Assembly (NCBI GenBank): GCA_027972325.1
Contig: JAPMOS010000038.1
Coordinates: forward strand, 71,001-135,000
Reading direction: 5' to 3'
DNA: 64,000 nucleotides
Source: Paratrimastix pyriformis
Lineage: Eukaryota > Preaxostyla > Paratrimastigidae
Shown here piece by piece: positions 2,076-52,960 of the stretch. The position numbers were made by a program, and so were the translations under genes. Every line of letters starts with the position of its first letter. Within the stretch, counting starts at the first letter, position 1. Under the pieces are notes generated by a model. That model saw only the letters and a program-made list of their open reading frames with translations. It did not search any database and had not been told where the DNA came from.

Positions 2076-4773
2076 CATCTGTGCCTAGCTGACGGACACA
2101 TGCCCAAGACGGCGATGGGCGTGGTCAGCAGGCAGACGCCCGCGAAGACGACAAAGGGCGCCCACTCGGTGGCCCACTGGGGCAGCCCCACGTTGAGGAT
2201 GGTCCACTCGAGGGCCGCCAGGAAGGCCAGCCAGTACTGGGCCGTGTACTGCAAATCCACCGAGAAGGATGATGGAGGATGGAGTGGGGGGGAGGGGGGA
2301 CCGATGATGAGAATAGGACTCACTGGGTCAGTCATCCCCATGGGAGCGCGCGCGCACACACACCATATGTCGGAACTCCTGCATACATGAGTGACATAAT
2401 CATCAGCATGCAACCACCAATCATCAATCAACTTCAACATACACGTTAACGTCAACACCAACATCATCCGCATGATCACCATCACCACCATCATCACCAA
2501 CACCATCACCATCATCACCCACCACCCACCACCACCCACCACCACCCACACCCACCCACCACACCACCCCCCACCACACCACCACCCACCACCACCATCA
2601 TCATCATCATCCGCCGCGAGGTGAGCACAGGGACGGACGAGCATGCTGGCGAGGCGGGTGTGGTAGGGCATCATCCACACCAGCAGGCCCAGCATCAGGG
2701 CCGTGGCGACCAGGATGATGATGGCCCGCAGGACCGTGTGGGCGGTGAGCACACGGCCCGCACAGACGATGAGACATTTGCACACGGTCTGTGGAGGGAG
2801 AGCGAGAGGAGGATGGGTTGGGTGAGGCACGTGCACGCGTGGCGGGTGTTGTGCGTGCGTGTGACGATTGTGGTCGCGTGGGCAGGGAAGGGAGGTGAGG
2901 ATGGGGTGGGGATGGGGTGAGGGAGGGAAGGGAGAGGAAGGGGAGGGGAGGAAGGGAGGGGGAGGGGGAGGTGGATGCAGACCACAAGAGCTCAGCGGCC
3001 GCGGCTCCGACTGTCGAAGCCGTGCGATGGAAATACACTATGGGGGGGAGGGGGAGGGGAGGGGAGGGGATGGGAGGGGAGGTGGAGGGAGGGGAGGGGG
3101 AGGTGGAGGGGGAGGGGGAGGTGGAGGGGAGGTGGAGGGAGGTGGAGGGGAGGTGGAGGTGGAGGGGAGGTGGAGGTGGAGGTGGAGGGGGAGGGGGAGG
3201 TGGAGGGGAGGTGGAGGTGGAGGGGAGGTGGAGGTGGAGGTGGAGGGAGGTGGAGGTGGAGGGGAGGTGGAGGGGAGGTGGAGGGGAGGTGGAGGGGGAG
3301 GAGGGGAGGTGGAGGAGGTGGAGGGGGGAGGTGGAGGGCGAGGGGGAGGGCGAGGGGGAGGGCGAGGAGGGCGAGGGGAGGGCGAGGGGAGGGCGAGGGG
3401 AGGGCGAGGGGAGGGCGAGGGGAGGCGAGGGCGAGGGCGAGGGAGGCGAGGGGAAGGCGAGGGGAAGGCGAGGGGAGGGCGAGGGGGAGGGCGAGGGGGA
3501 AGGCGAGGGGAGGGCGAGGGGAGGGCGAGGGGAGGGCGAGGGGGAGGATGGGGGGAGGATGGGGAGGATGGAGAGGCGAGGGCGAGGAGGATGGGGGAGG
3601 ATGGGGAGGATGGGGAGGATGGGGAGGATGGGGGGGGGAGGATGGGGAGGATGGGGAGGGGTGACGTAGGCAGAATGAAGGTGAGCATGCGATGGAAGGA
3701 GGACACGGTGTGGGTTGTCTCTACCCCATCATCTCCATCCGCCGCCGCCGCCACCACCACCACCACCACCACCACCACCACCACCACCACCACCACCACC
3801 ACCACCACCACCACCACCACCACCACCACCACCACCACCACCACCACCACCACCACCACCACCACCACCACCACCACCACCACCACACACACACACACAC
3901 GCAAGACGGACAAGATGGCACCGCCAAAGGTGCTGATGAGGAAGATGGTCAGCACGACCAGGGCCACAACCGAGGGAATAATGTGTGGCATCGCCCAGCA
4001 TTGAATGTCCGGGAAAAGGTCGTGGACGACAGTGCCATCGGGGAGGTAGCGACAATCGAGAATATCCAAAAACGATCCCAGAACAGGGATCAGAAAAACC
4101 CAAGCTATTATGATTGTGAGGAAGAGAAGGCGCATATGGTGGGTGATGGGGGGCACGGAAACCAAAATGCCAGACTGAAGATGAAGTAGCTCCATCGCAC
4201 AAAACGAAGTGGCCACTAAATCAAGTGAAAGATGGATGAGACCGTGTTCCTAGAAGCACAGACAAGAACGGCACCGGAGTCTTTGTGGAAGAAAATCTCG
4301 CACAGAATGGCGCAGAGAACAATGAGAACAGTAAACCCGGCACAGATCCCAAAGGAAATATAAGTTGTCAAGGGGGAAATTTTGCTGAACGAGAAGTCGA
4401 TCAGATAGAGTGGGATCTGCACCCATTGTGTTTTGTAGAAAACAGTGGGGATTGCGACGATGATGAAAACGAGCTGGATGGTTTGAAAGAAGTAGAGAAC
4501 GCCTAGGGAAAAAATCGACAAAAATAATAAACCAAACACAAGCCTTTCAAGCGAGGCATGGCACTGTCCAGCTGCAGGGAAAAAATGGATGTGATGATGT
4601 CCGAGATGGTGGCAATCTGATGAGACCTTGAGGAGGTAGTAAAGGGCGAATAATCCTCGCTCAAATTTGTTAATGAGTTCTTCCCGCTGCATTTCAGGAG
4701 TTCGAGCAGCCGAGACGGAACTCAAAAAGAACCCGATCGATATTGCCGGCCGTTTGTTGGCTCGTCCGGGCAT
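1..4773 (-). CDS. Tiny-macrocysts-like (Tmc) multi-pass membrane protein, N-terminal part (3' end off the window)
   Basis: Seen: minus-strand exons with hydrophobic segments at about 4773-4240, 4213-3920, 2790-2630 and 2258-2100, then soluble exons at about 892-634 and 201-1. The second exon has the cysteine pair in LDCRYLPDG and IQCWAMPH, with short spacing, which is a hallmark of the Tmc (tiny macrocysts protein B/C) family. The exon at 201-1 contains a helical segment ([15 protein letters not shown]) typical of the half-TPR-like stretch after the Tmc membrane region. Known: Tmc proteins are large multi-pass membrane proteins of amoebae and flagellates, often with PAS domains, linked to cell fusion or mating in Dictyostelium. 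Start: the ATG at 4773 is the first in frame. Introns are filled with repeats: a CCA array (3.75-3.9 kb), a GGAGGT-rich block (3.04-3.66 kb), TCA and CATCCCG arrays (1.8-2.07 kb) and a 7-bp array (1.34-1.54 kb). The gene is cut by the left edge. Exon joins between 3.7 and 2.8 kb and between 2.1 and 0.9 kb are not resolved. Confidence 0.7.
1340..1543. repeat. 7-bp minisatellite (GAGGCGA unit)
   Basis: About 20 head-to-tail copies of a 7-bp unit, preceded by degenerate variants from 1340. It lies in an intron of the Tmc-like gene. The long arginine/glutamate-rich plus-strand open frames across it are artefacts of the repeat. Confidence 0.9.
1797..2071. repeat. TCA/CAGCAT trinucleotide array followed by a CATCCCG 7-bp array
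   Basis: CAGCACCAT-type repeats lead into a pure TCA array (about 1854-1933), degenerate CAGCATCAT, and then about 12 copies of CATCCCG (1983-2071). Both sit in one intron of the Tmc-like gene, directly beside the exon that ends near 2100. Confidence 0.9.
3038..3660. repeat. G-rich purine minisatellite (GGAGGT / GGGAGGGCGA / GATGGGGAG)
   Basis: More than 600 bp of almost pure purine on the plus strand, changing unit from GGAGGTGGAG to GAGGGCGAGGG to GGATGGGGA. It lies within the Tmc-like gene, so the transcript carries the pyrimidine-rich strand. The long Gly/Glu/Arg plus-strand frames are repeat artefacts. Confidence 0.9.
3742..3901. repeat. (CCA)n array, about 45 copies, with a CA tail
   Basis: Uninterrupted CCA from about 3751 to 3886, flanked by GCC repeats on the left and a short CA run on the right. 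In the minus-strand transcript it reads GTG repeats starting just after the donor of the exon ending near 3920. Confidence 0.95.
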
Positions 4774-13473: not shown

Positions 13474-16321
13474 CCCGCAGCCGCCGCCCTGCTGCGACCC
13501 TTCACCATCCCGGCCGTGCAGCACTGCTGCGTGGCCGTGGGCGGGGAGGACGGCACCGAGACGGGCCTGGCCACCGTCGAGCGGTTCGACTTGGTGCGGG
13601 GCCGATGGGATGGGATGCCCCCCCTGCACAGCCGCCGGGGCCGGCTGGGGCTGCTTGCCTGGGGAGCCAACGTGTTCGCAATCGGGGGCCGGGGCGGCAA
13701 CAGCCAGGCCAGCATCACCAACACGATTGAGATGGCCAATATGTGGGACGGGGCCAAGTGGCAGGTCTGCGCCGCCAGGCTACCATCCACCACCCGCATC
13801 GCACACCATCGTCATCACCAACACCATCGAGATGGAGAATATGTGGGACGGGGGCCAAGTGGTGTGCGACGGACACCACCTACCAGTGCGGGGGGGGGGG
13901 TGGGGGATAGGGGGGGGGGGGGGGGGGGGATCCTCAGTGGTTGTGCAAGCCTGGGGGGGGGGGGGGGGGGGGGGGGGGGGCGTACGGCGCACGGTCGAGT
14001 CGGCTTTACGTGGGTTTCGGGTGATTTGGGGATGGTGGTGGATGGATCGGCGATCTGAGGGCGGCGATCTGAGGGCGGAGTGTGCGCTTCCATCCCCCCA
14101 TCCGCACCCTTCCCTGACCCACACATGCCCTGTCCACCCACCCCACGTGTCATTTTTTCAGGTTCTCCCGACCACCCTGAGTGCGCCGCGGTGTTCGGTG
14201 GCCTCCCGCACTCACCACTCACTCATTTTCATCTCTCCTACCTCCTACTGCGCATATATGTCAGGTTCTCCCGACCACCCTGAGTGCACCGCGGTGTTCG
14301 ATGGCCTGCACGGTGTACGAGGATCGGCTGGTGGTGCTTGGCGGCTTCCAGAACGACCGGCTGACCACCGTCGAGCAGCTCAATCTCGAGGTCGACATCG
14401 CCCCCCCTCCCCCTCCTCCTCCCCATCCCATCCCATCCCAGCACCACCCCCAGCACCACCAGCATCATCATATTAGCATCGTATCAGCATTATCATATCA
14501 GCACTCAGTCGGCAGCACCCAGTCGGCAGCATCAACATTACCAGCGCCACCACACCGTTCGACTGCGCATATGCCCCATGTGCCCCTGTCCTCACCCGCC
14601 TCACCTTTCTCCCCTGTCTCTCCCCCCACCACCCACCCATCGGGCACCACTCCCTTCCCCCCAGGCGTACCGCGAATCGCCCCAGCTGCTGCTCCGCAAC
14701 CCGCCCCGCTGGTCGGCCCTGCCCCCGCTCACCTTCGCCCGCAGCTCGCACACGGCCCAGGCGGACCCTCGCACCCGGTCCCTCATCACCATCGGCGGTC
14801 CGGCGGCCACAATCCCCCCCCCCCCCCACCCCACCCCACCCCACCCCACCCCACCCCCCGCCCCGCCCAACCTCCAGACGGGAGAGAAGATGGGGCTGTG
14901 GCGGAGACAGGCGCAGCGGTAGCGAACATGAAGAGAAGAGGGCGGGGCGTGGTGGGGCGATGTAAAAAATCTGCAGAAGAAGGGAAAAGGTGCCCGATTT
15001 TGACAGATTTTTGACAGAATCTCACCAAGCTGCGTGCGAGGGGTATTTGGGCCCCTACAATCGGATGTAGTCCGCATCGCATTTCGGACATAGTCTAGCT
15101 GGTCAGGATAGTAGACCCTCACTCTACAGACCCGGGTTCGAGTCCCGGTGTCCGAAAAATAATTTTGCCTTCCCCCCCCCCCCCCCCCCCCCCCCCCTCC
15201 GCAGGCTGGGATGGCCACCGCAGCGTGGCCACCTGCGAGCGCCTCGATCTCGGCTCGGAGCGCGGCTGGCTGCCGCTGCCATCGCTGCGCCAGGCGCGGC
15301 ACTACGTGAGCTCAGTCTCGCTGAGCGGGTCCATCTGGGTCCTCGGAGGCGCCTGCGACACGGTCTGGCCATGTGGCTATCGCCGGGGGGTAGTCAAGAC
15401 GGGACCCGTTGGGCCATCGGGGGCAATTTTTAAATGAATGTGGCTATCACCGTGGGCGGATATGGGATACCAAGGGGGAATGGACACTGCCCTATGCGTC
15501 GGTGCCCAGTCTCAACCCGGATGGTCTTTCGTGGTGGTGGTGGTGGTGGTGGGTGATGATGATGATCGGATGATGATGATGATGCTTGGATGACGATTGG
15601 ATGATGTTGATGTTGTTGATGATGTTGATGTTGTTGATGATGTTGATGTTGTTGATGATGTTGATGTTGTTGATGTTGTTGATGATGATGATGCTAATGT
15701 CATTGATGATGATGATGCCCCGGCCGCTGCAGACGATCGCCCAGTCGATGGAGCGGCTGGACCCCCGGGAGCGCGCCTGGACGCTGCTTGACGCCCGGCC
15801 CACGCCACGCCAGGGGATGGCCATCTTCGGGGTGCAGGACGAGGTCTGCCGTGGTGGTGACGGGTGTGTGTGTGCGTGTGTCTGTGTGTGTTAGGGGGGG
15901 GGGGGGGGGGGGGGGGGCGTCTGCACTGTCTTGTGTGTGTATGCGCCGCTGCGACCACTGGAAAAGTGCCCGTGGCTGCCCGCCAGACACACTCCGCTTT
16001 GGGAAGACCAGCTGGCAGGCAGTATTGGCTTCTTTCGTCCTCTGCCCGTGCCCGTTATTTTCCTCTGGGTTCCTCCCACTGCCCCTGTTCCTCCTTTTCC
16101 TCCCCTGGGTTCCTCCTCCCGGGTCTTCATTACCCACCTCTCTCCCCCATCCCTCTCGGCAGGACTGTCTGTACGCGGTGGGCGGCTACGACGGGCACCC
16201 GGTGGCGCTCTTCGAGCGGTTTGACGTGCGGATGCAGCGCTGGGAGCAGCTGGCGCCCCTGCCCACCGCCCGGGACACCCTCGGGGCCGTGGCCTTCCTT
16301 AATATGCCCTCGCCCGCCTAG
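10476..16321 (+). CDS. RING / TRAF-type zinc finger / filamin-like / kelch multidomain protein
   Basis: At least ten exons. Exons 1-2 (10476-10649, 10699-10781) encode a RING: CPVC, then GCGHTFCRECC and CPLD, with the last zinc ligand Asp rather than Cys. Exons to about 12320 carry repeated TRAF-type zinc fingers (CPELILL, CPNTMLPCPNQC, CGYRLVRCGHAGC, ACPSRVVACPNGCG) and a short coiled coil. Exons at about 12480-12607 and 12911-13100 resemble one filamin repeat (RPDGTPVTGLQ, then GGEYELVLPAQPDGAVSCAF). Exons at 13492-13752, 14263-14390, 14667-14811, 15205-15360, 15730-15850 and 16164-16321 are kelch blades (YAVGGYDGHPVALFERFD). It ends NMPSPA-stop. Inferred: an E3 ubiquitin ligase with substrate-binding blades. 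The TAA near 12327 is intronic (donor GTCCGT). Introns contain GAT arrays, G-tracts, two exon-edge duplications and a tRNA gene. Joins in the zinc-finger exons near 11.15-11.3 kb are uncertain. Confidence 0.8.
12610..12860. repeat. (GAT)n / GGATGAT array
   Basis: Long GAT runs (12683-12716 and 12750-12815) with GGATGATGAT variants fill the intron between the two halves of the filamin-like domain. Confidence 0.95.
13255..13473. repeat. GATGAT / GGATGATGATT array in an intron
   Basis: Degenerate GAT and GGATGATT repeats run right up to the CCCGCAG acceptor of the first kelch exon, so the acceptor has almost no ordinary polypyrimidine tract. Confidence 0.9.
13726..13870 (+). repeat. Duplicated 3' edge of a kelch exon (decayed copy in the intron)
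   Basis: The exon end at about 13716-13752 (ATCACCAACACGATTGAGAT, then ATGTGGGACGGGGCCAAG) is repeated at about 13813-13857 as ATCACCAACACCATCGAGAT, then ATGTGGGACGGGGGCCAAG. The second copy has a one-base insertion that breaks frame, so it is an intronic remnant, not an exon. Confidence 0.75.
13890..13981 (+). repeat. Cluster of poly-G tracts
   Basis: Three G-runs of roughly 8 to 30 bases within 90 bp on the coding strand of the kelch intron. Such RNA could form quadruplexes, though this is inference. Confidence 0.9.
14158..14312 (+). repeat. Duplicated 5' edge of a kelch exon with its acceptor
   Basis: TCAGGTTCTCCCGACCACCC followed by TGAGTGC(G/A)CCGCGGTGTTCG occurs at 14158-14205 and again at 14259-14305. 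The second copy starts the real exon. The first is followed by unrelated sequence, giving a decoy acceptor about 100 bp upstream. Confidence 0.8.
15084..15155 (+). tRNA. tRNA-Glu (anticodon CTC), inside a kelch-gene intron
   Basis: A 72-nt cloverleaf. The acceptor stem TCGGACA pairs perfectly with TGTCCGA. D arm GTCT...GGAT. Anticodon stem GTAGA/TCTAC encloses the loop CCCTCAC with CTC at 34-36. T arm is CCGGG TTCGAGT CCCGG. The D and variable regions look like eukaryotic tRNA-Glu. Box B is GGTTCGAGTCC. A TTTT about 10 nt downstream could be the Pol III terminator. Oddity: position 33 is C where U is almost universal. It lies in the sense orientation in the intron between kelch exons ending near 14811 and starting near 15205. 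It could be a functional gene or a recent tRNA pseudogene. Confidence 0.85.
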
Positions 16322-30892: not shown

Positions 30893-31183
30893 ACCGGCAA
30901 ACCCAATAACGCCTCCCTTCCACCCCACCCCACCCCCCCTCTCTCTCTCTCTTGCTTTCGCTTGACCGCTCTTGTAACCTTTTTGCCTGGGTGTGCGCCC
31001 TCATTCTTCGTGCCTGCTGACTTATATTTCCCGTGTTTGCCACCATTCCGCCGACCCTCTTCGGTGTCCCCATCAGCTTTTTTCGATGTAACGAACTTTT
31101 ACATGGGGGCAGCGAGCGCGAGAAGAAGAAGAAGAAGAAGAAGAAGAGTCCCATCGGCACGTCCCGGCCACCCGCCCCTGGCT

Positions 31184-41170: not shown

Positions 41171-42155
41171 CTACTGTGAGATGCAGCCGGGGTTCTGCCG
41201 GCGATCCTCCGGCTCTGGACCACTCGGCTCTTCCAGCACGACCAAATTGATTCCATTGGGAACCATCTCCAGCGCCATCTGCTGGATTTCAGCCGAAACT
41301 CCCAGCGACAGCCGCTGCAGAGTCGCCACTGCAGAGCTTGCGAGAAATTGCATAAGGTGCCGTCCACCCCTGCCGATGGCTTGCAGGCTTAGGACGCTCA
41401 GGGTGGGGACTGCAGCGCGTGTGAGCGTCACTGGCCCCTCAATCTCGCCGACGATGCGCATCTCACGAAGGGCAGGCGCTTCTCGAATCGTGAGCTGCAT
41501 CAAATGACAACAGTCCGCATCCAGAAGGCCAAGAGCCATCGCTGGGCCCAGAAATTGCAGAGAGAGTGACGCCCAAGGTACCCTGATGGAAATGGAGCGG
41601 AGCGTGTGGCAGAGTTTCTCGGGGACGTCCAGGGTGACGGGAGTGCGAGAGGAACTGGCGATCCCGAGGACGCTCAGTTCGGGAACGAGAGCCCCGGCGC
41701 AAAGCTGCCGGAGGAAAGTGGCCTGTTCCGGGCCAGGGTCCAGGTCGCACAACCGGGCAAGCTTTGGGGCGTGCGAGAGGAGGCCGTGGAGAAGGAGCGA
41801 CTTGCACATGGGCACTTCGGACTCCACCGAGGTCAGTTCGGGGAGGAGCTCGAAGACTTCGAGAATAACGAGGGGTTGAGGTGATTCTAAAAAAAGCCGT
41901 TGGAGTCGGGTGCAAATTCGGAGCTGCAGCAGGGCCAGGTTCGCCAAGATGCAGAGGTCCAGCAGAGACTCGCAAATGATGGCAAGTGTCGGAATTTCTC
42001 CTTGGATCTCGACCTGCGACAGTCCACGCGGAATGGGGCGGAGATGCGTCGTGAGAAGCGCGCGTGCGGGCGCAAACGTGCACTCGGTGGTGGTGATGAA
42101 GGAGGGAGAGACAGGTATCGTCAAGGCCCGAGGAGAGAGAGAGAGAGAGAGAGAG

Positions 42156-42354
42156 CCATCAACCCAGGCCCGCCGTGCGTGGCCAAGACCGACTGCGACA
42201 AGAAGCTGCTGCTTCCTGGTGCCGCCTGAGGGCTCGACGAGCTACGGGCTGAGCACTGAGTGGGACGGAGTCAACCAGTTGGTATTTTAAGTGATTTCTT
42301 TTCTCTCTTTGTTCCCCTTTTACGGGCCCTGGTGGCTCGGTTTTCCGGAATATG
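42156..42354 (+). mobile_element. 5'-truncated 3'-end copy of the GA-tailed retrotransposon
   Basis: This 199-bp segment (CCATCAACCCAGGCCCGCCG through TTTTCCGGAATATGA) matches 45981-46180 at all but about one position. It is preceded by a GA run (42131-42155) and followed by a short one. It is a dead-on-arrival insertion in the same orientation as the full-length copy. Confidence 0.9.
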
Positions 42355-42362
42355 AGAGAGAG

Positions 42363-42432
42363 TGGTATTTTAAGTGATTTCTTTTCTCTCTTTGTTCCCC
42401 TTTTACGGGCCCTGGTGGCTCGGTTTTCCGGA

Positions 42433-42437
<5 letters not shown>
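42363..42437 (+). mobile_element. Second, 75-bp tail fragment of the same retrotransposon
   Basis: TGGTATTTTAAGTGATTTCT to GGTTTTCCGGAATATGA repeats the last 75 bp of the preceding fragment exactly, then a GA run (42438-42474). This is head-to-tail stacking of three insertions separated by GA tracts. Confidence 0.9.
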
Positions 42438-42474
<37 letters not shown>

Positions 42475-42476
<2 letters not shown>

Positions 42477-45400
42477 CAGGGTGAGGTCGACTATCGCTGT
42501 TTTTCGCTTCCGCTTGCGGAGGCGTTTTGACTCAACCGCGAAGTCACCCACCCTTGCTTTTTCGGAGAGCATTGCTGTTTGCTCTTCTTGCTTTCTTTGG
42601 ATGGTCAACACCCGTTCACAAGAGATCAAGCATTCGTCGAAATCTTCGAAGCCGGCATCGCCGACTACCTCAGAACCTTCTCAGGGATCACCAGTGAGGG
42701 ATTCACACTTGGTTTCTACTGCTGGTGCCATTCGTGCTGATTCCCACTCCGGTGCTCCGCCGATGCAATGGCGGACTCTTGCGTCCTCACAGCTGAATCA
42801 CGTGCGGCAGAACGTTTCAGCTGCGATTGTTCGCTTGACTGTATTCTCTGGTTCCACTGAGCTTCTGGACCTTCTCAAACTCCAACGACCTCAACGCGAT
42901 AGCGTCCTCCGGGGAGCGACTCTCCGGTTTCGTTCAGAAGTCGCATGCAGCTCAGCTGGAAGAGCTTGGCTCGCGTACGATTGGCTCGGTCTTCCCGCGG
43001 GCGCAGCACAAGTTTCCTGCCGCAGCGCTCCGCATTCCTCTTGGTCAACTCGATCCGGCTTCCGTTCCCACGGAGGCCGCCCACCCTGCCGCTCCTGCAC
43101 CCGCACCCGTCGCTGCGCCGCGCGCCCTGCCAGCGTCATCGGCTCCCGCTGCGCCAGCCCCTGCTTCGGACGAGCTCCCCCAGCCCCGGCCAGTCCCCGG
43201 GGTTGAAGCCCCTCCGGCGGTGGAGGTTCCCCTGGCGGCAGCCCCACCCCACCTCGGCGGGTTCTCCCCGCCGCCTGTACCCGCCCAAGCAAGGAAGGCC
43301 ACCTTCATCCTGCGCGAGGCGTTTCAGGCACTTCAAGTGGTGGTGGCTGAGCTCCCTCCGCCCCCCGACGTTCGCGAGCGCATCGAGGCCGCGCTCGTGG
43401 GCCTGGAAGGGCGCATCTGGGACGAGTTCGGGCGCGAGCGGGCGCATCGACGAGGAAGCGGCCAGGGTCCAGCCGCAGATTCGCCGAGGCGGCCGTGGCC
43501 GATGGACGACTGGCTGCGGCAGTCAGCGCCCTCACCTCCCCGCCCGTCCCTGACGACCCAACCCTCCCACAGAAGCTGCAGAGCCTGCACACCACGCTGG
43601 TGACCCCACACCCGCCGAGGTGCTTGCCCTGTACCCCAACCCCGAGGCCCCTGCCTGGTAGGACTTCGAGGCGGCCGAAGTGGCGAAGGTGGCCGCCGCT
43701 CTCAACAATGGGGCGCCGGGGCCCTCAGGTATCATGCCGGGGTGGCTCAGAGGTGCTATTCGGCGTGACGAGGCCCTTGCTGGGGCCTTGGCCTCGCTGT
43801 TCACATTTTTGCTCGCTCCGGGTGGGTTCCCCAGCCTCGCCCGCAGCCGCCTGGTCCCCCTCCCCAAGGATGGCGGATCCATTCGCCCAATTGCCCTGGG
43901 CGAGGCTTTGGAGCGGCTTTTCGCCAAGCTCTCCGCCATTCGGGTCCTCCCCATCACTCGCGGCCTTCTGTCGCCTTCTCAAGTGGGGATTGGGGTGCCC
44001 GACCCAGTCGGCCTCATCTCGGCCTACCTGGGCTGGGCCATTGCCGCAGCCATGGAGGACCACGTGCCGCTCTGCGTCATGCACATTGATATGGCATCCG
44101 CTTTCAACTCGGTCCGGCGCGACGCGGTTCTGGCAGCCACGGCGCCCTGGGGCCCCAGTTGTGCGGCGTCATGCGGGCACTCTACGACAACGAGCAGCTC
44201 CTCTACCGGGGGGTCGTCATCGACAACAAGGCCGGCGTGAGGCAAGGTGACCCCTTGTCCTCCCAGTCCTTCTGCCTGGCACTCGATCCCGCACTCCGGG
44301 CTGTGGAGCGTAGCGGGACGGCCCCGGTCATCCTCCGTGGCATCCGAGTCGTTGCATGTCTCGCTTACCACGATGATGCGTTCCTCATCGCCCCTTCTGT
44401 TCCGGCACTGGTGAAACAGCTCGAGGCCTTCCAAGGAGTGGCCACTCCGGTCGGCCTCCGCCTGCGGACCCAGAAGTGCTGGTTGTGGGCCAACGATCCT
44501 GCTGCGGAGCCTCTCTCGATCGACGGAGTGCCTGTCCCCCTGCGACGTCCCGACGAGGGCCTCGACCTCATGGGGACTTTCATTGGGCCCGAGGACTTCG
44601 TGGCCCGGGGGGTTCAGCGGGTCTACGATGAGGCCCTCCAGGCCGCGAGGCAGGTTGGCCAACTGACTCTGCAGTCCTGGTTGCTGGTCCTTCGCAGCTG
44701 CATCATCCCGAAAGTCATGCATGTGACGAGGTGCAGCTGCGTATACACCATCGGCGGGGGGCCCAAGCTCGTGGAGACCTTTGATGAGGCCATCTGGAGG
44801 CTGTTCAACGACCGCTTCTGCCTCTCTCCCGAGTCATACCCCCGCTCGCTGGTCAACGTCCCTCTTCGGCTGGGGGGGCTTGGCCTGCTGTCCATGGCCA
44901 TGGCGAGGGACGCGGGCACCGCCGGGGCCCTCATCTCCCTCCTCACAGCAACCTCCGGGGTCCCCGACCTCCTCCGCCAGCACCTCTGGGCGATGCTGGC
45001 AACCGTCACCACTGGGTCCGAGTATCTGCGCCAGCACACTTTTCTTGGGCAAGCATCGGAGTCTCTCGGTCGCATGGGCCTCAACCCGTCCGCTGACCAA
45101 CAACTCTTCCGGAGCGACACCGACGTCATGCCTGCCAAGGGTGCCCAGCACATTCTCTACCAGCGGTCCACCCGGGCACTCGCTGAGCGTCTCTGCGAGG
45201 ACGCGTGCCCCCTGTTGCGGAAGGTTCTGGCTACCACCGCCAACAGCACATCATCAGCATGGCTCACCTGCTTCCCGGCTCCGCTCTTCCGCATGGACGA
45301 CCACATCTTCAGGACCGCGATCGCTCTGCGCCTGGGCATTCCTCGGGTGAGTCAGCTCCACGACCTTTTCGGCCACGACTGCCCCGTCTGCCATCATCCC

Positions 45401-46174
45401 CTCGAGGAAGGCCACGACCTGTCCTGCGGGAGTGCTGTGCTCGGGCTGGAGATCGACCGCCACAACGCGATCACCTCCATCCTCCACCAGATGTGCATGA
45501 CAACCAGGCAGCCTGTCAAGATGGAGCACATGGTCCGGGCCGACAAGCGCAACAAGAAGCCTGACCTGGTCATTGCCCTCCCTGGGAAGGGGGAGGCCTC
45601 ACCTGACACTTTCACCCGGCATTACGTCGACGTGGCTGTGGGCAATGTCTTCGCTTCCACCTACGCGGACGCAGCCATTCGTGGCGAGGTCCCGCGTCTG
45701 CTGGAGGCCGGCAAGGTGAGCGACTACAGGCTCTGGAAGGAGTCCCACCCTGAGGCTGTCTTCCACCCCTTCGGCGCTTCCAACCTCGGCCAACTGGGCC
45801 CCCAAGCATTGGGTTTCCTCGACCTGGTCAAGGCCCAGTGCAACAAGATGCATGTTGCCTTCTCGAAGCATTGGTGGTGCACGAGGATCTCGGTGACTCT
45901 GATGTACTACGTTGCCCTGATGCCTGACTTCTGGTACCAGACTGCCTCCGGGAGACTGGCCGACACCCGCAACCCGTTTGCCATCAACCCAGGCCCGCCG
46001 TGCGTGGCCAAGACCGACTGCGACAAGAAGCTGCTGCTTCCTGGTGCCGCCTGAGGGCTCGACGAGCTACGGGCTGAGCACTGAGTGGGACGGAGCCAAC
46101 CAGTTGGTATTTTAAGTGATTTCTTTTCTCTCTTTGTTCCCCTTTTACGGGCCCTGGTGGCTCGGTTTTCCGGA

Positions 46175-46209
<35 letters not shown>
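42475..46209 (+). mobile_element. Near full-length RLE-type non-LTR retrotransposon with a (GA)n tail
   Basis: About 3.7 kb. The 5' side is a low-complexity Ser/Ala/Pro-rich ORF1-like region (about 42600-43560, frames interrupted). The RT region starts near 43680 (NNGAPGPSGIMPGWLRG) and ends with the C-terminal zinc-finger and endonuclease region. 3' UTR of about 125 bp, then GA repeats (46179-46209). Restriction-like-endonuclease elements (R2, R4/Dong, NeSL, CRE clades) are often sequence-specific, and Dong inserts into TAA microsatellites. Here all three copies are bounded by GA tracts, which fits a GA-microsatellite target. Frameshifts near 43.5 and 44.15 kb suggest this copy is inactive or the assembly has errors. 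Confidence 0.85.
43680..46054 (+). CDS. Reverse transcriptase with C-terminal CCHC finger and restriction-like endonuclease (frameshifted)
   Basis: The first frame (43680-44150) holds RT fingers motifs: PKDGGSIRPIALGEALERLF and MHIDMASAFNSVRR. A one-base shift near 44150 leads to the long frame (44159-46054) with VRQGDPLSSQSF, the catalytic box AYHDDAFL (44360-44383; YxDD type with His), a thumb region, a C-x2-C-x8-H-x4-C finger (CPVCHHPLEEGHDLSC, 45380-45427) and then KKPDLVIALPG with TRHYVDVAVGN, which matches the PD-(D/E)xK-type RLE pattern. It ends LLLPGAA-stop. No APE endonuclease is seen. The order RT, finger, nuclease is diagnostic of RLE elements. Confidence 0.8.
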
Positions 46210-46212
<3 letters not shown>

Positions 46213-47510
46213 TGGCGACCTTAAGCAAGCTGGTCGACACCAATGTGTACGAGGGAGACTTGACACCTGCCAAATCCAGCAGAGCTTCGGTCAATTGGTC
46301 GAACATCTCAGGTCCCAGTGCGTCGACCCTCCCCTCATAATTGCGCAGACAGGGAAAATTCCGAGCGGTCACAGGAACCCACCACCCACTGAGAGCCAGT
46401 GTTTCCAAGGTGTCACCAAAGGGTCGAAACACCGAGAGCTTGATTCGTTTCTCGCCACCCTGGACCATTTCCAAGGTGAGGCTGGTCAAACCGTCCAAGC
46501 GGCCGAGTTTGCGTGGCAACTCTTGGCATGAACATGCCAAAGACCGGAGTCGTGTCGGGTGCGGGAGCGCCTTGATGTCCAGATCCTCCGCCAGAAAAAC
46601 ACCGGCCAGACGTTCGAGGTCGGGCAGGTGACGCAGCACTTCGCTCAAAATATTGCTGCTGCAGAGAGGCGCCTGCAGAACCCTGAGGTTGGAGAGAGCA
46701 CTCAACGGGTACGGGTCCAATGGGATGCCACTCTCCTCGATGGTCAGCTCGCGCAGTTGAGGGCACTTTGCCAGGCCGTGCGCGAGGCTCCGTAGGAGTG
46801 TCAAGGCCGATATTGGCTCGCCTCTGATGGCGTGTGAAGAACTCAGCACAGTGAACGACTCCAGCCGAGCGGAGAGATGCTCCAACACCCGATTGAATGT
46901 TTCGTGCGTAAAACCACCCAGGGTTCGTAGTGTGAGAGAGTAAAGACAGTACCGTCCCGCAAAGATTGCATCCGCCCAACTTGCCGATAATTCGGCCCGG
47001 TAATCCAGGAGACACGGCAATGCCAACGATTCGAGGCGCTGACACGGACCCACCAGCAACTCCATTGAATTCAAAAGAGATGATGTTTTCTGCCTGAAAA
47101 GTCGGCGAGAAGGATGTGAGACGACAGGGGAATCCTGGGGCTCAACAAAATCTATGTGGCGGATGGTGCCGCGAACACGCAAGCGGATATCATGATTCAC
47201 AGATTGGAGCAGGCAATAGGCCTCCAAGTGAAAGGGCGCATTTCCCACGATGGTGGTGAGAAGTTCGGTGGGCAATGAAGACAATTGGTCCTGAATGACG
47301 AACGAATCCTCTTGAAGGATGACCCCTCCGTCCATCACTACGACTGGAAAAGTTGCCGGCGCAGGCAGGCAGAGATCGGGGTGGTCGAGACGTTGACATG
47401 AATTCCCCGGTGGATAACCCCCCGCTGCTCTCTCACGATGCCGTATGACTCGAGAGAATGTGTTCAAAATGAAAAGCTTACAACATGGAAAGGGTGAAAT
47501 GTCGGCCGTT

Positions 47511-52960
<5,450 letters not shown>

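Follow-up and report, generated by a model that had tools for sequence, protein, structure and literature searches.

How does one stretch of DNA come to hold three copies of the same retrotransposon, pointing the same way and each with (GA)n on both sides? The question is posed by a 64,000-nucleotide (nt) window of the Paratrimastix pyriformis genome (contig JAPMOS010000038.1, positions 71,001 to 135,000 of the forward strand; coordinates are those of the window unless a locus handle such as C57 is attached), in which two fragments, of 199 and 74 nt, and an element of 3,704 nt, all from a family here called A, lie head-to-tail. By its sequence motifs, family A is classed below among the retrotransposons without long terminal repeats (non-LTR) that carry a restriction-like endonuclease (RLE). 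The answer we favor, with a probability of roughly 0.87, is that family A, its sibling B and a short companion C insert into GA microsatellites and stack by re-insertion. An earlier note on the window had described the three-copy stack, which is present, the second fragment measuring 74 nt and being perhaps a local duplicate. The stack is laid out as follows.

42133..42154, + strand: outer 5' (GA)11 run, 22 nt, read as part of the original target
42155..42353, + strand: family-A copy, 5'-truncated, 199 nt, element positions 3506-3704, 99.5% identity
42354..42362, + strand: GA run, 9 nt, separating copies one and two
42363..42436, + strand: family-A copy, 5'-truncated, 74 nt, element positions 3631-3704, 100% identity
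42437..42474, + strand: (GA)19 run, 38 nt, separating copy two from the full element
42475..46178, + strand: full-length family-A RLE retrotransposon, 3,704 nt, beginning CCCAGGGTGAGGTCGAC and ending GGAATAT before (GA)n
46105..46179, + strand: 3' tail of the full element, with the core GGGCCCYGGTGGCTCGGTTT common to families A, B and C
46179..46208, + strand: 3' (GA)15 run, 30 nt

Outside the stack, the window has a single GA/TC run of at least 10 nt, a 12-nt TC run at 30940; the clustering of GA runs at the stack is thus not a matter of chance.

Across the genome (56,060,509 bases in 495 contigs), the copies end in GAGAGA or longer, have GA at most 5' ends, keep a fixed orientation relative to GA and lie intermixed between families, head-to-tail. 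The 20-nt core GGGCCCYGGTGGCTCGGTTT occurs at 256 exact sites (reversed control, none), and a 26-nt version of the tail, allowing up to 3 mismatches, has 285 matches. The loci examined comprise 121 recognisable tail ends, 61 of family A, 48 of family B (3.7 kb each) and 12 of family C (about 0.94 kb). All but two of these ends (119/121) enter GA, with at least three GA/AG units within the next 40 nt; the remaining two are C57:222822, whose run has the sequence GAGGGGGG, and C1:1450952, without the tail. Among the 121 exact cores on the genome's forward strand, 102 are followed by GAGAGA 8-11 nt past the core, compared to 0 for the reversed-pattern control (the count for the reverse strand is left out, being inflated by overlapping matches). 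The shortest outer 3' GA runs measure 5-6 nt; about three GA units therefore seem to suffice. Of the 3,733 (GA)10 20-mers in the genome, 1,085 lie in the examined loci, and much of its long GA repeat content may thus be due to the elements.

The head-to-tail arrangement recurs elsewhere, with 21 multi-copy stacks at the examined loci, the largest of which, at C459, consists of 12 truncated copies drawn from three families. Neighbouring 3' ends less than 4 kb apart, counted over the first 100 of the 256 sites, share their orientation in 40 cases and oppose each other in 0, or in 27 and 0 once the tandem arrays at C10 and C101 are removed; a downstream neighbour within that distance is expected by chance at about 1.8% of sites. 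Families A, B and C are mixed in 18/21 multi-copy stacks, all start points are different in 17/21, and 46/56 inner downstream copies are 5'-truncated. These mixtures, varied starts and truncations favor repeated insertion, in line with the earlier proposal that new copies enter the GA tract left by a previous one. That stacks stem mainly from a single insertion multiplied by tandem duplication or unequal exchange was also considered, and this process has real instances: it clearly added copies at C10 (a unit of about 1,030 bp), C101 (three identical 120-bp units) and C223 (repeated blocks), and the window contains two exact 83-bp units at 42280-42445, the 74-nt fragment belonging to the second (copies truncated at 3631/3632, as this fragment is, also recur at C212 and C223). 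The family mixtures and the differing starts contradict it as a general account, for which it is improbable, while it is likely true for a minority of stacks. Slightly less probable again is the formation of stacks in one event, the reverse transcriptase (RT) reaching the 5' end of one RNA and switching directly to another's GA tail. End-to-end template jumping has been reported for R2, and the junctions do read tail, GA, 5' end; such jumps, however, predict full-length downstream copies, whereas most of those observed are truncated at varied positions, a pattern that degraded RNAs could still fit.

The outer 5' junction of each stack offers a test that is independent of the element's own GA tail. 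The 121 ends fall into 65 stacks, 44 of them single copies, and give 52 usable outer junctions (excluded were one that is not a true end, 11 in which the copy begins at the edge of the examined piece or close to it, and one with N letters). A GA run of at least 8 nt lies in the 45 nt before the copy at 42/52 of them and a CT run at 0/52, against a background of 22/13,781 windows for the GA run; at inner 5' junctions, GA is found in 54/56. Some copies sit within older repeats: the C32 copy inside an array of GAGAGAGAGATA, the one at C38:96064 inside ACAGAGAG repeats, a C101 copy inside CAGAGAG-type repeats, and the C321 copy between a GA run and a TG run. Imperfect or compound flanks of this kind cannot be made from a pure GA tail, and the target therefore pre-existed at these four copies. 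GA microsatellite targeting, as first suggested from the window, is thus upheld by the outer junctions and by the insertions within arrays that already contained GA; GA flanks the majority of copies, and such runs extend well beyond this one locus. That GA is the element's tail only, with no GA target needed and upstream GA derived from older tails or later expansion, is very unlikely: it would suit the near-universal 3' GA, the many upstream runs that are the previous copy's tail within a stack, and a host repeat at C12 that has no GA run in 8 other copies, but first-in-stack copies beside non-element flank carry 5' GA in the 42 cases above, and some flanks are older GA-containing arrays or compound GA-TG runs.

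Several points nevertheless weigh against insertion of A, B and C into pre-existing GA runs, or against its generality. The loci came from the tail search, a protein search and the first exact matches in contig order, and are thus not a random sample of insertions; 19/121 forward-strand cores, mostly uninspected, have no GAGAGA at the tested spacing; and 10/52 outer 5' junctions have no 8-nt GA run. Among these ten, C299 and C190 are duplicates in a GA-rich GGGAGAGA context, one junction lies inside a G run and one beside a GT run, and four (C472, C137, C75 and C446) are unexplained. The last two, C82 and C489, were considered as non-GA insertions and set aside, since on the left both abut multi-copy sequence that stops at the break, and another repeat probably cut the element; they are still counted as exceptions. 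The C12 copy has a multi-copy repeat on its left, perhaps part of the RNase H region of a retroelement, which it resembles by eye; 8 other examined copies of this repeat continue without a GA run at that place, and the right flank does not match it, so the case is ambiguous, though it counts against a GA run having always been there beforehand. Flank searches of 30 sites (one incomplete), mostly with single-copy flanks, yielded no clean empty site; at two places paralogous to the C101-type flank, short GA runs do occur, with other left flanks. Post-insertional expansion may have contributed to the GA runs, and, given the exact 83-bp duplication, one of the three window copies may be a local tandem duplicate.

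Under re-insertion into GA microsatellites, the endonuclease would nick the TC strand of a GA run, and the TC end would pair with the RNA's GA tail, whatever the register, and prime reverse transcription; synthesis would commonly stop early and be joined to the upstream GA run via a few matching bases. Each insertion would leave a GA run on its 3' side as a new target, so that the next copy would come to lie downstream in the same orientation. At 5' truncations, the element and the GA run share on average 0.98 nt of microhomology (54 distinct junctions), compared to 0.55 in simulation, with 0/2000 trials as high. The A and B tails are predicted to fold more stably than shuffles (z -2.9, -2.75 and -2.83), the GA repeats pairing with a CU tract upstream of them; the C tail folds no better than shuffles (z +0.54). 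At neither the 5' nor the 3' ends did Rfam match a ribozyme or any other RNA above threshold. Tail-matched targeting would account together for GA location, single orientation and stacking, and would give the elements a self-renewing target.

The protein of the full element is encoded in the following features.

42439..43603, + strand: N-terminal coding region in two overlapping frames (42439-43206 and 42839-43603), no Pfam domain
43662..44240, + strand: frame carrying the RT's N-terminal half (RVT_1 match below cut-off)
44090..46054, + strand: 654-residue frame with the second half of the RT, a CCHC motif and RLE motifs
44366..44377, + strand: RT catalytic YHDD, by motif alignment
45380..45427, + strand: CCHC motif C-X2-C-X7-H-X3-C, by motif alignment
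45458..45727, + strand: RLE motifs RHN ... PD ... D ... EAGKxxxY, conserved in A, B and D

In the window copy the coding region is thus split into several broken frames; another copy, at C452, has 1,075 open codons. An alignment of A, B and a sister lineage D has in common GVxQGDP, YxDD, CCHC and RHN-PD-D-EAGKxxxY, the C-terminal CCHC and PD-D-K endonuclease motifs being invariant. In Pfam scans, RVT_1 lies above cut-off in family D (67.1 bits) and only below it in the broken window copy, and no apurinic/apyrimidinic endonuclease (APE) was hit in the window frames, the D open reading frame (ORF) or the B N terminus. Against solved structures (PDB), a profile of the three families matches R2 at 2.3e-17 and L1 ORF2 at 2e-5, with a weak R2 alignment of 3.9 bits across the RLE stretch alone. 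The predicted structure of the 654-residue frame was unusable (mean predicted local distance difference test score, pLDDT, of 35), so the RLE assignment rests on motifs. From the RT, CCHC and RLE motifs and the APE-free scans, A, B and D are classed as RLE-type non-LTR retrotransposons, the domain content that the earlier note had read from the window copy. Internal stops in the protein-match table are all TGA, never TAA or TAG, which could reflect C-to-T change at CGA codons.

Lineage D (38% identical) ends in GTGTC(A)n, and its tail has 200 genome sites with up to 2 mismatches. At nine D loci, picked as close pairs, inner junctions are A-rich in 9/9, and outer 5' junctions, of which seven are visible, carry nine or more A in five cases, five A in one and none in one; neighbour pairs in the first 100 D sites are in the same orientation 21 times and opposite 0 times. 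D thus matches (A)n as A and B match (GA)n, so that tail and target agree in two lineages with different repeats, and the presence of both sister lineages in one genome makes target switching by tail change testable. In a further lineage, E, and its relatives (L078, L075), tails lie near inverted copies of a related tail, and the 3' ends have no obvious microsatellite.

Family C shares with A the start of the 5' end and the 3' tail, and encodes only a 247-residue protein with CxxC...CxxC, for which Pfam gave nothing above cut-off and a sub-threshold zinc-ribbon match. Two C copies differ at 47 positions in 741 nt with a ratio of nonsynonymous to synonymous change (dN/dS) of 0.37, which suggests constraint on the protein. 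The A, B and D copies tested encode neither this protein nor its counterpart in D. Homologues at 29-34% identity exist elsewhere in the genome, and one, at C101:575460-576720 (minus strand), belongs to a clean 979-nt element with an intact 268-residue zinc-finger ORF (33% identical to the C protein), preceded by 18 A and followed by D's tail (93% over 45 nt) and then 12 A. Two further cases are positional only: at C344, a homologue stands about 230 nt upstream of a D tail, and at C47:14497-14982, about 580 nt upstream of a lineage-E tail (15560-15577) on the same strand, a possible third companion. Short zinc-finger elements with matched tails suggest a bipartite long interspersed nuclear element (LINE). 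In the model that we put forward tentatively, at somewhat less than even odds, the long element would give the RT and endonuclease, and a tail-matched element of about 1 kb the conserved zinc-finger protein that both need: in (GA)n, C would serve A and B; in (A)n, D would rely on a short element of its own; and E would possibly rely on the one at C47. The matched tail and target would let the parts co-insert and stay together while lineages switch repeat. If the companions are needed, an RLE LINE has divided its proteins between two elements, as HeT-A and TART do; a limited open-access literature search found nothing on point for a protein split across two elements in RLE or other LINEs.

Of the known systems, HeT-A and TART of Drosophila telomeres are the closest functional parallel to the companions: PMC5537684 describes similar head-to-tail arrays and a Gag-supplying element that cooperates with a Pol-supplying one, but at chromosome ends, whereas here a zinc-finger short element would pair with RLE elements in microsatellites. 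Dong, the precedent cited in the earlier note, does insert in (TAA)n with RT and RLE in one ORF, and the portion of PMC7998251 describing it reports no N-terminal zinc finger. Dong is thus alike in RT, RLE and microsatellite target, and differs in that the target here is GA, that short companions occur here, and that its 5' end self-cleaves (as stated in PMC3774820) whereas Rfam matched no ribozyme here. The N-terminal Myb-like domain of Dong/R4 had no Pfam match here, the published, diverged domain having needed a profile-profile search. Togen, a NeSL-related RLE LINE of fish specific for (TG)n, likewise uses a dinucleotide microsatellite, of another repeat and in another host; HERO, likened here by description and not by sequence, also has some microsatellite-specific families, most being described as non-specific (both from the relevant passages of PMC4640811). 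The same repeat on both sides of most copies, the mark of a microsatellite-specific LINE, is found here (119/121 at 3' ends, 42/52 at outer 5' ends). Given Dong, Togen and some HERO, GA specificity is therefore a new instance of a known habit; the literature search found no paper on GA repeats with RLE LINEs. R2 is alike in the order of RT, CCHC and RLE motifs and gives the best solved-structure matches; it differs in its target, 28S ribosomal DNA, where the copies here are dispersed and GA-flanked, and no N-terminal zinc fingers were seen in the frames examined.

Other short tandem repeats are abundant in the window (138 entries over 1-64000, many of TGA/GAT type), and none hosts family A. 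A repeated module that begins ...GAAAATGATGATGGGCCGCGG occurs at C179:361150-361700 and at C455:168700-169420, after short GA runs whose left flanks differ; at C179 it ends in a long GA run, and is perhaps another GA-associated mobile sequence. On the opposite strand of the window, two ORFs adjoin the stack.

46145..47851, - strand: leucine-rich host ORF, first half, entering the GA run as Ser-Leu codons
41171..42241, - strand: leucine-rich host ORF, second half

A paralogue spanning the stack junction was sought and none was found, which leaves no empty site there; the stack appears to split a single leucine-rich minus-strand host gene.

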